A program made the position numbers and the translations under genes. Positions 51,619 to 57,335 of a stretch of DNA of 63,801 nt are shown here, piece after piece. Source of the DNA: a virus; the IMG/VR virus record IMGVR_UViG_3300032236_000737, positions 1-63,801 of that record; one strand, given 5' to 3'. Under the pieces are notes generated by a model, which was given only the letters and a program-made list of their open reading frames with translations, ran no database searches and was not told the DNA's origin. Position 1 is the stretch's first letter. Every line of letters starts with the position of its first letter.

Positions 51619-52449
51619 ATGACAGCAAAAGTTAACTACCTAAACAACAAGGATATGTTGTTAGAAATACACAAATCAAAAAGCTCATATTGCGTTTTTA
51701 CCAAACCAGAATATCACCAATATGACATTATTTTGCCAAGTTTAGACAAAATAAACATACGTAGTGTAGCCGAAGCTAAAAGGAATCGTGCGAAAAGAAT
51801 AGGAGATTTGGACTATCAAACTCGCAAAAAAGCCGGCGAAAAAGTCAAACAAGCAGACTGCGAAGTGGACTATAAAAAGATTGCTAAGACAGATTTAGTC
51901 TTTAGAATCATGACGTTTGATCATATTCCGCTTAATAACACACGTAAAAAGAATCCTAAAAGCGTAGCAGATCATCGCGATAAAGTAAACTTTCCACCGT
52001 TCCAACATTGGAAGTTTGACGAAAACGATGAACTAATATGTGTCGGAAAATCACACTGGAAGGGCGATTTAGAAAAGGGCAAGTTCGATAAGGATGCTGG
52101 CCAAATAACTAACACCTTAGCTAGGATGATGTTAAAATTATGTGAGCGTTACGCTACTCGCGGTAACGTTCGTGGCTACACATATAACGATGAAATGAAG
52201 GGACAAGCTATTCTACAGTTGACACAAATTGGCTTACAATTTGACGAAAGCAAGTCGGATAATCCGTTTGCTTATTTTACTGCGGCTGTAACTAATAGCT
52301 TTGTTCGTGTTATTAATATCGAAAAACGTAACCAGAATATTCGCGATGATATTTTAGAAATGAACGGCATGAACCCAAGTTATAGTCGTACTGGCGCTGG
52401 AGAACACGCCGCGGCTATGAAACGATATGAAGGCGATTCTAGTGAGTAA
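51619..52449 (+). CDS. 55: Late-transcription sigma factor gp55
   Basis: A 276-residue homologue of T4 gp55, the small sigma-like factor that directs host RNA polymerase to TATAAATA late promoters. The strongest match is the sigma region 2-like helix 'DNPFAYFTAAVTNSFVRVINIEKRNQNIRDDIL' (about 213-245). 'ITNTLARMMLKLCERYATRGNVRGYTYNDEMKGQAILQL' lies before it. It is longer than T4 gp55 (185) by an N-terminal basic domain of about 90 residues. Its partner gp33 and the clamp gp45 are not in this window. Confidence 0.85.
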   Translation: MTAKVNYLNNKDMLLEIHKSKSSYCVFTKPEYHQYDIILPSLDKINIRSVAEAKRNRAKRIGDLDYQTRKKAGEKVKQADCEVDYKKIAKTDLVFRIMTFDHIPLNNTRKKNPKSVADHRDKVNFPPFQHWKFDENDELICVGKSHWKGDLEKGKFDKDAGQITNTLARMMLKLCERYATRGNVRGYTYNDEMKGQAILQLTQIGLQFDESKSDNPFAYFTAAVTNSFVRVINIEKRNQNIRDDILEMNGMNPSYSRTGAGEHAAAMKRYEGDSSE

Positions 52450-55504: not shown

Positions 55505-55930
55505 ATGTCTTGGTACTACGAAAATCAAATTGTTGAAGAACTTCCGGAAGATTGTGTTGGGTTTGTATACATTATAACAAACACATTATCCGGGCGTATG
55601 TACATAGGCAAAAAACTAGCAAAATTTTCTAAGACTACCTATAAAGTAGTCAAATTAAAAAACGGCACAAAGAAGAAAAAGAAAATCCGTGGTAAGATTG
55701 ACAGCGATTGGCGCACCTATTATGGTAGTAGCCCAGAGCTTACAAAAGATATCACGCAGTTAGGTCAAGAAAACTTTCGCAGGGAAATACTATTTTACTG
55801 TAAATCCAAGGCAGAAACGTCATATATAGAGGCTCGTGAACAATTCAGCCGTCGTGTGCTGGAATCAAATGACTATTATAACGGTCATATTCAAGTGCGT
55901 GTACACGGTTCACATATACTCAAATCATAA
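55505..55930 (+). CDS. GIY-YIG family nuclease
   Basis: A 141-residue protein with the GIY-YIG fold. 'GFVYI' (19-23) and 'YIGKK' (33-37) replace the name motif, 'DWRTYYGSSPEL' follows, and 'ETSYIEAREQF' brings the catalytic Glu near 109. A Lys-rich insert (50-64) probably contacts DNA. The family includes homing nucleases and repair enzymes. There is no second DNA-binding domain, so a homing role is not assured. The structured non-coding region follows directly. Confidence 0.75.
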   Translation: MSWYYENQIVEELPEDCVGFVYIITNTLSGRMYIGKKLAKFSKTTYKVVKLKNGTKKKKKIRGKIDSDWRTYYGSSPELTKDITQLGQENFRREILFYCKSKAETSYIEAREQFSRRVLESNDYYNGHIQVRVHGSHILKS

Positions 55931-55934
55931 TAAT

Positions 55935-56412
55935 TTAGGCTCGTTACATCACCAAATAAGCCCGCACTGGCGTTGATATAGTGTCCGTAATCCGTTCTGA
56001 TGTGTGACGGTAAGGTAGTTCTGCTTGGTGACAGAGTTATAAATCACTATCCTTAACAGGACGCGGATGAGATATGCCATAACTCATTTGATTTATAAGG
56101 AGTAATCGCTGGCTAAAAGAGGGGTAGTGGCCCCACGTTTACAAATATGTTAGCGTATATTTGTAAGCCGCCGTCATATAAAGACAGCATGAGCAGGTAC
56201 CGGATGACCGCCTGTGTTTTAGTGCTAACGCTAAGTGATATTGTTCGACTCAGATAATGTCCAAAAAATACTTTGCCCTGCCTGGGCAAAGTGTGACTGA
56301 ACGATCTAGATAATATCTTTAACGCTTCGCGTTTAATTAACTACTAACTACTCTTTAATAGAACTTGAATAGTTCGAGCGAAAGCGATGAACAGAAGAAC
56401 GCAAGTTCTTCT
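55935..56412 (+). ncRNA. Candidate large structured RNA in a gene-free region
   Basis: No convincing reading frame fills these ~480 bases, in a genome where genes otherwise overlap. Perfect stems seen: 55949-55955 with 56025-56031 (7 bp); 56037-56046 with 56089-56098 (10 bp) enclosing 56066-56071 with 56083-56088; 56139-56148 with 56157-56166 (10 bp); 56270-56278 with 56284-56292 (9 bp); 56361-56365 with 56371-56375; and 56393-56400 with 56405-56412 around a GCAA tetraloop. The loop TTAGCGT (56150-56156) is complementary to ACGCTAA (56228-56234), a likely pseudoknot. The strand is inferred from the flanking genes. The exact ends and the family are unknown. Confidence 0.6.
56393..56412 (+). 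other. GNRA-tetraloop hairpin at the 3' end of the structured region
   Basis: AGAAGAAC (56393-56400) pairs with GTTCTTCT (56405-56412) around GCAA, followed by TTAAAG. The T run is too short for a strong terminator, but the hairpin could define the 3' end of the RNA. Confidence 0.6.
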
Positions 56413-56422
56413 TTAAAGTAAC

Positions 56423-56430
56423 GATAAATA
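56423..56430 (+). promoter_or_regulatory. Late-promoter motif right before the hydrophobic-protein gene
   Basis: GATAAATA ends five bases before ATG 56436. If it works as in T4, transcription would start at or just after the ATG, giving a leaderless message. It may instead serve an internal start or be fortuitous. Confidence 0.4.
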
Positions 56431-56435
56431 TCTTT

Positions 56436-57335
56436 ATGAAACTTCACGAATTACTTGATAATGACTCCTTACGAACTAATGAAGGACTAGCATCTTGGTT
56501 AGTTAAAACAGGTGCTAAGATGGGAGGCAAAGCTGCCGTTAAAGCTGGACTTAAAGGGTCTGCTCCTGCTGCCGAGAAAGTGGCTACAAAAGTTGCAAAG
56601 TCTGGTGTAGTAGACAAAGGATTTAAAGCCATATTTAAAGTAGGCGAAATCGTCAAGTGGCTGGTAAGCATTGGATTTGGTTATAGTGTAGCCAAACCAG
56701 TTTATGACTACTATACAAATGTTAGCAAAGCTGAAGACAACTACAAAGCAGGTGCTACTAGCCAAGAAGAATATCAATATATCCGTCAGCAACTGATGGG
56801 TCTTATGTTGACCAAGATTGCTGTCTTATTAGAAGGTGCGGCATTTTTAGGATCTATTGGTCTAGTTGCTAAAATCTTGGGCATTTTTAAATTTATTCCG
56901 GGAGTTGGATTAATTTTAAGAACAGTCTTGGCTATGGATACTGCGGCCGCTGCCGCATTCTTAGTAGCACTTAACAGTGAGTTTGGTCGCAAGTGGATTA
57001 CTAAAATTGCTTTCTTCCATCTAAGTGAAATTTTCCCTAGTTTGAAAGGCAGTCAATGGGATTTAGATATTGCAGATGTACTAGGTGCTGGCGGTGTTTG
57101 GATTACAGACGAATTTAAAAAGTTAATTGGTAAAGAAGATCCGGCAGATGCTCCTATTCAAGGAAATACTCCTGCTCAACAAGCTGGAAGAACTCCAGAC
57201 GACAAAGCTACTGATACTGCTCAAAAACAACATGCTGACCAGCAGACTAAAGACACAGATGAATGGGAACAAATTGCCCCAGGACGTGAGCAAAATAAAC
57301 GTACGGGTGTTATCCGTATGAATGACAAATATTAA
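56436..57335 (+). CDS. Hydrophobic late protein of unknown function
   Basis: A 299-residue protein. The N-terminus 'MKLHELLDND' resembles the start of other late phage proteins. Hydrophobic segments lie at about 72-92 and 112-176, the latter long enough for two or three membrane helices ('IAVLLEGAAFLGSIGLVAKILGIF'). The last 70 residues are Gln/Thr/Asp-rich and probably disordered. No Shine-Dalgarno site is visible. It could be a membrane-active virion protein or an injected protein; I do not recognise a family. Its stop overlaps the convergent stop in TTAA. Confidence 0.5.
   Translation: MKLHELLDNDSLRTNEGLASWLVKTGAKMGGKAAVKAGLKGSAPAAEKVATKVAKSGVVDKGFKAIFKVGEIVKWLVSIGFGYSVAKPVYDYYTNVSKAEDNYKAGATSQEEYQYIRQQLMGLMLTKIAVLLEGAAFLGSIGLVAKILGIFKFIPGVGLILRTVLAMDTAAAAAFLVALNSEFGRKWITKIAFFHLSEIFPSLKGSQWDLDIADVLGAGGVWITDEFKKLIGKEDPADAPIQGNTPAQQAGRTPDDKATDTAQKQHADQQTKDTDEWEQIAPGREQNKRTGVIRMNDKY

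Follow-up and report, generated by a model that had tools for sequence, protein, structure and literature searches.

What occupies the gap that follows a GIY-YIG nuclease gene in this viral genome? The window, by which we mean the whole 63,801-nt stretch of DNA analysed (IMG/VR record IMGVR_UViG_3300032236_000737), has an intergenic share of 3.2% by our own ORF set. The gap itself runs from the end of the GIY-YIG gene at 55930 to the start of the next plus-strand gene at 56436. A first-pass annotation had described it as free of genes and had proposed that it encodes a large structured phage RNA at 55935–56412. We asked how far such an RNA extends, whether it belongs to a known family and what sets it apart.

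A known Rfam family is the first third of a larger phage RNA

The gap was confirmed as gene-free, with only short ORFs between 55930 and 56436. The single-strand fold of 55950–56420 reached −129.6 kcal/mol, compared with −113.0 ± 5.8 kcal/mol in 100 dinucleotide shuffles (z = −2.84), and none of the 100 shuffles reached as low an energy. Based on a conservation profile, 246 loci (202 distinct sequences) and pairing counts, the whole structured RNA was placed on the plus strand at 55955–56415 (~460 nt), almost the same interval as first proposed; its 5′ end is estimated from conservation and its 3′ end from the last conserved hairpin. Together with the strong covariation found among homologues (see below), these results bear out the proposal of a large structured RNA.

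Using cmscan, we identified the first part of the RNA (domain A, 55959–56098, plus strand, helices P1–P6) as Polynucleobacter-1 (RF01718). The match scored 74.4 bits (gathering threshold 37), covered model positions 1–141 of 141, and was the sole Rfam family over its cut-off anywhere in the window. The earlier view that no family could be assigned thus fails for domain A, and it stands with respect to GOLLD, ROOL, the group I intron and tmRNA, all of which stayed below their Rfam cut-offs; the OLE model did not reach its cut-off in the window either, Rfam and ARAGORN gave no match to a group I or group II intron or a tmRNA there, and the window contains no tRNA. The conserved RNA is about three times as long as the RF01718 match, conservation in the alignment runs on to approximately 56415, and the parts beyond domain A comprise a domain with two pseudoknots, a 3′ domain and two 3′ hairpins. 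The RF01718 entry is therefore the first third (the first ~140 nt) of a larger conserved RNA in T4-like phages. A table in a 2010 survey lists Polynucleobacter-1 in Burkholderiales and in fresh water or estuary samples and marks it y, y and ?, in columns that we read as RNA, cis-regulatory and switch (PMC2864571). Whereas the catalogued motif stands alone, here it is the first domain of an RNA of ~460 nt that occupies a constant position in T4-like phages.

A profile search (~320 loci) found the RNA in 246 loci with 202 distinct sequences, and RF01718 was over its cut-off in all 22 related contigs, in exactly one copy each. The Polynucleobacter-1 core pattern matched at least 120 viral stretches, of which seven inspected ones (L023, L038, L043, L084, L090, L096 and L105) were chance matches and were left out of the counts. 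A further 82 pattern stretches in bacterial genomes look chance-like by their scatter. None of them was among the matches outside the core set in a profile search that included them, and they were not part of the search that gave the 246 loci. With the RNA as query, blastn gave no match in the phage collection and none in plasmids, and queries from L332 and L094 gave short chance matches only. A scan for an ACTACCC-form sequence variant found none.

The RNA body is supported by covariation

The structure was analysed in an alignment of 74 sequences, each less than 87% identical to the others. The structural model comprises 92 pairs, grouped into 23 helix pieces, and 89.6% of its 6601 cells were paired, compared with 75.4% when shuffled and 37.7–41.8% when partners were slid; the model was derived in part from the same 74 sequences. 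Changes on both sides occurred at 74 of the 92 pairs. Weak pieces were retained, namely two outer P4 pairs (20–23%), one P2 pair (50%) and P15. By a second statistic, whose tree-aware null was made by shuffling the substitutions over the branches, 13 column pairs were significant at E < 0.05; 10 of these are base pairs, located in both domains A and B and in the 3′ hairpins.

Domain B (56111–56236, plus strand) contains helices P7–P12 and two pseudoknots. In the first, PK1, a loop strand at 56150–56155 pairs with a downstream strand at 56229–56234. The first-pass annotation had noticed this complementarity with seven bases (56150–56156 with 56228–56234), and it was confirmed for the six pairs given here by two-sided changes at each of them, with 82–99% of the 74 sequences paired per position. 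In the second, PK2, the strand at 56173–56175 pairs with 56206–56208 and crosses P11 and P12. PK2 also carries two-sided changes; its pair 56175–56206 reads UA in 41 of the 74 sequences and CG in the other 33 (E = 0.038). These results show, by covariation, that domains A and B with their two pseudoknots form a conserved RNA body.

Further plus-strand hairpins follow domain B. P13 (56271–56291) had 82.1% of cells paired, with some rows misplaced by MAFFT, and P15 (56321–56333) was weak to moderate (51.9–84.6% of cells per helix piece). P16 (56372–56392) had 98.6% of inner and 70.6% of outer pairs formed, so the hairpin that had been described as closed by a GNRA tetraloop is real; its tetraloop, though, is often GAUA or GACA in relatives. 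P17 (56393–56412) was 94.3 and 98.6% paired and is accompanied by a short T-run, and its pairs 56396–56409 and 56399–56406 were significant under the tree-aware null. P17 is probably the 3′ end of the RNA or a terminator. On the minus strand, 56270–56292 reads as the P13 hairpin followed by a T-run, whose conservation is not clear by eye; this arrangement resembles an intrinsic terminator that would serve the convergent baseplate genes.

The gene on the 5′ side is constant, whereas the gene on the 3′ side varies

Family searches for identities and synteny across loci for order gave the arrangement late sigma factor, gp47, gp46, a small gene, SegE-type GIY-YIG, RNA, an optional late-type gene and convergent baseplate genes; the names gp46 and gp47 presume the T4 equivalence of SbcD/SbcC-like PHROGs. 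The start of gp47 overlaps with the sigma factor gene (51619–52449; phrog_12791, E = 3e-74), and a regulator of late transcription is thus a close neighbour of the RNA. The constant 5′ neighbour is the SegE-type GIY-YIG endonuclease gene (55505–55930, plus strand; Pfam PF19835, E = 2.4e-33). In PHROGs and many GenBank records this family goes by the name 'NAD synthetase', apparently an annotation error that has spread between records. Among the 220 loci with at least 700 nt of upstream sequence, the GIY-YIG gene lay within 150 nt 5′ of the RNA in 194 and 150–3000 nt away in 19, and it was absent in 7. The neighbours had been said to give no clue to function; the regular presence of the nuclease within 150 nt speaks against this, but RNA and nuclease are separable. 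Related nucleases also occur at other sites in seven named phage records, several of them beside nrd genes; none of these seven T4-like records matched RF01718, and the domain-B model gave no convincing match in them.

Alignment and synteny showed that the gene 3′ of the RNA differs among phages. In the window it is a late-type gene (56436–57335, plus strand) for which Pfam and PHROG searches returned no match. Many of these variable downstream genes, this one and its relatives included, begin with MKIYEII or similar, which resembles the capsid-targeting starts of T4 internal proteins. Ahead of the gene, at 56423–56430 on the plus strand, the sequence reads GATAAATA, which we take to be a T4-type late promoter-like box. 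A late-type box preceded an ORF in 53 of the 124 loci with a gap of at least 150 nt. Among 165 loci with the convergent genes in view, a plus-strand ORF of at least 80 aa lay between the RNA and the convergent genes in 88, the gap lacked such an ORF in 36, and in 41 a convergent gene lay within 150 nt after the RNA. Because of these 41 loci, the RNA is unlikely to be only a leader.

Domain B resembles the cow-rumen-2 RNA of rumen phages

At a permissive threshold, cow-rumen-2 (RF02947) matched the window at 56137–56234, spanning the PK1 pseudoknot already noticed, with 22.6 bits, below the cut-off of 66. When 23 contigs were searched, 20 had a match, each with one match just downstream of RF01718; 9 of the 23 came from a cow-rumen-2-like pattern, and of the other 14 (window included) 11 matched. 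The match beside RF01718 was the best of its contig in 17 contigs, and the cut-off was reached in none of the 23. In the reverse search with the domain-B model, 16 of 18 matches fell at the rumen site among 33 rumen loci (best E = 0.018), evidence that is weaker because the rumen loci were picked by the core pattern. Both RNAs have a UUAGC-type loop and, further downstream, a strand that is its complement (by eye in the rumen set), as well as a core of GCCGCC and GGAUGACC and a hairpin flanked by matched words. On these sequence grounds, domain B shares a homologous core with cow-rumen-2. The two types differ in that Polynucleobacter-1 was below its cut-off in all six rumen loci scanned with all of Rfam, and in that rumen phage contigs carry up to four copies, compared with one RF01718 copy. 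A divergent RNA on a 9-kb contig (L524, 8097–8154) combines freshwater and rumen features with a GGTACAGGATGACCGCC core and is a possible intermediate between the two types.

The same short word is presented twice and changes in both copies together

The three other significant column pairs join like letters at a constant spacing of 56 and do not represent base pairs: 56252/56308, 56258/56314 and 56247/56303. The first two lie inside two copies of the word AGATAAT on the plus strand, word 1 at 56252–56258 and word 2 at 56308–56314, and the third lies five bases 5′ of each word. P13 stands between the words. Word 1 equals word 2 in 72 of the 74 sequences, and these 72 contain 10 word types; the exceptions are L037 (six of seven letters) and L045 (the same word, one column off). 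The letters just before the words differ, CTC before word 1 and TCT before word 2 in 73 to 74 of the 74 rows.

Changes were then inferred on a tree built without the words. The whole word changed 32 times per copy; all 32 changes fell on shared branches and 30 were identical. At word position 1, each copy changed 22 times, and in all 22 cases the two copies shared both the branch and the new letter. For random column pairs, 16% of changes were shared on average (maximum 93%). In the larger set, a regular expression found exact word identity in 199 of 246 loci and six of seven letters in four more. The 43 loci without a match to the expression (among them L348, L385 and a few others without a word-pair call) are mostly contig-end cuts or belong to an L045-type clade with the word shifted by one base; L110, L356 and L379 were missed by the expression, and L110 has GGATGAA twice. 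The word pair of L354 differs by one base. These results demonstrate that the 3′ domain presents the same short word twice, flanking a hairpin, and that the word drifts, always in both copies together.

Several simple accounts of the words were dropped. Antiparallel or palindromic pairing between them was rejected since the first and seventh letters, judged by eye, vary independently of each other, a target-site duplication since duplication does not explain the concerted later changes, and a tiny ORF between the words since its frame is not conserved (by eye). A pattern R-NNN-R-A was seen in the word loops, and the idea that they are anticodon-like was also dropped.

Rumen RNAs were examined in 41 retained sequences, 31 with the anchoring motif and 26 distinct; the chance matches L525, L528 and L549 were dropped from the counts and L524 was set apart as divergent. 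In these 26, the longest common stretch between the segments on either side of the hairpin averaged 6.65, compared with 5.15 ± 0.22 when partners were swapped (0 of 300), a statistic that A-rich words could inflate. The words include ACAGAT, ACGGAATA, GCAGGT, CCAGAA, CCAAAAG and AGCAAAAG, and the match is imperfect in several (e.g. L535, L544 and L564). In three cow-rumen-2 RNAs (L329, L330 and L332), a word of 8–9 nt, CTTACTGTA, occurs twice, and an intervening TACAG could pair with either copy, an arrangement that may be a two-state switch. Two jumbo phage contigs (G024 and G025, 415–424 kb) have four cow-rumen-2 RNA copies each, several of which precede late-type genes, baseplate-like ones included. 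The G024 copies read ACAGAT three times and GCAGGT once; in G025 two copies read CCAGAA and ACAGAT, and for a third (388k) the automatic rule gives CCAATCGC, inspection by eye CCAAAAG. In this copy-level reading of 22 copies, the anchoring motif was missing from four and the core from one. Paralogues in one 424-kb phage contig thus carry differing words.

No complement of the word was found near the RNA or in shared phage genes

The complement of the word was not found within the RNA or its flanks, by either aligned or alignment-free search, and it was not enriched in the flanking 5–14 kb within loci (98 compared with 93 ± 8). No complement was shared among gene leaders in 83 gene clusters; a single cluster with three words in its leaders was rejected, as their positions were unrelated. 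Nor did 106 gene alignments from 18 contigs show one at orthologous coding positions, and the count in intergenic DNA (27 compared with 18.8 ± 4.2) was not significant. Among neighbouring proteins, no column tracked the word closely (MI at most 0.19 of 1 bit for GIY-YIG and at most 0.49 for the others), and GIY-YIG residues did not track word position 1. The tRNA content of the contigs gave no lead to a partner either; one RNA-bearing phage contig (G022) has an ARAGORN tRNA of suppressor type with anticodon cta. The contigs are mostly incomplete and some were present in part only, so these negative results are not proof that a partner is absent. The candidates left are a protein, a molecule of the host, a partner encoded elsewhere than in the conserved phage genes, or direct loop–loop recognition.

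Discussion

We see about an even chance that the locus encodes a trans-acting, stably folded phage RNA of ~460 nt with a duplicated recognition word for one partner. Such an RNA would probably form the 3′ end of the transcript of the recombination operon (gp47, gp46 and GIY-YIG) or start from another promoter, would end at the 3′ hairpins ahead of the late genes and would act in trans. Since the word changes freely and always in both copies together, each RNA may have a single partner that reads both copies. In the simplest case, this partner would be a nucleic acid that base-pairs with the word, with bivalent capture or bridging of one target species; different RNAs would then have different partners, and the outcome could be that of a decoy, a regulator or a scaffold. 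On the most economical reading, a stable RNA body carries a bivalent recognition element. Small RNAs with duplicated seeds and CsrB-type decoys also present repeated short loop motifs to one partner. In those RNAs, the motif is fixed by one host partner, whereas the word described here drifts with both copies staying equal.

A bolder version, to which we give tentative credence at best, is that these are a class of separately addressed phage RNAs that share the same body, each with its own duplicated word, read as a pair, for one specific partner. If this is true, jumbo rumen phages hold several such RNAs, whose differing words would let them serve as a few individually addressable adaptors. 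At its most extreme, this idea would have the two words recognise each other by identity rather than complementarity, a mode for which we know of no natural RNA precedent.

A cis-regulatory leader that controls the late gene after it is an unlikely alternative account, even though the 2010 table marks Polynucleobacter-1 as likely cis-regulatory (PMC2864571), the 88 loci with an intervening ORF have a gene to control and rumen copies likewise precede late-type genes. In 41 of the 165 loci there is nothing to lead, in the window the late promoter-like box comes after the RNA, such a box precedes an ORF in 53 of 124 loci, and the identity of the downstream gene varies.

Slightly less probable is a putative homo-oligomeric scaffold or cage, in which the words would be two equal docking points of a symmetric assembly. 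ROOL, GOLLD and OLE form homo-oligomeric assemblies, and ROOL and GOLLD are phage-encoded and of no known function, according to the accessible sections of one report (PMC12286853). All three are large, ornate and pseudoknotted like the RNA described here, which is also phage-encoded and has no visible protein partner. However, our RNA is shorter than ROOL and GOLLD and matches none of the three Rfam models, and those sections make no mention of a paired word. Nor does it lie near tRNA islands, as GOLLD and ROOL often do, since 18 of 20 contigs had no tRNA in the fetched parts. Moreover, complementary contacts alone would not be expected to hold two loops identical. Another large noncoding RNA of a lytic phage is the ORF-less RNA of ICP1, described as the most abundant phage transcript (PMC7567579); it is ~800 nt long and comes from a different phage, and we liken the two by description alone.

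We regard as improbable a cause at the level of DNA, in which some process acting on DNA would hold the words identical as sites of binding or recombination, with the RNA incidental there. The preservation of identity alone, not complementarity, fits such a process, as does the failure of the complement searches to find an RNA partner. On the other hand, the helices around the words covary as RNA, and simple gene conversion would homogenise the adjacent letters, so that the difference between CTC and TCT argues against it. Least likely of all is that the RNA is part of a GIY-YIG nuclease unit (a homing element or a guide-like RNA of the HEARO/OMEGA kind): the gene is adjacent in 194 of 220 loci and its identity to the window's copy is often above that of gp46 from the same locus, but it is absent in 7 loci and 150–3000 nt off in 19, its class differs from that of the guide-associated nucleases, related nuclease genes occur in T4-like phages with RF01718 in none of seven records, and its residues do not follow word position 1.

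Of this RNA, the first third was already in Rfam. In the open-access literature searched we found no paper that presents the complete RNA, treats the two Rfam families as one RNA or describes matched words. The word pair is possibly a new principle. Identity between distant loops through 32 inferred changes is not predicted by ordinary base pairing, by leader regulation or by simple conservation. A single larger RNA that recurs in phages now unites two orphan Rfam families, and function can therefore be approached through the whole RNA and its genetic context rather than through fragments. The matched words provide a directly testable handle on the function of this RNA, and the identity of their partner would probably explain it.
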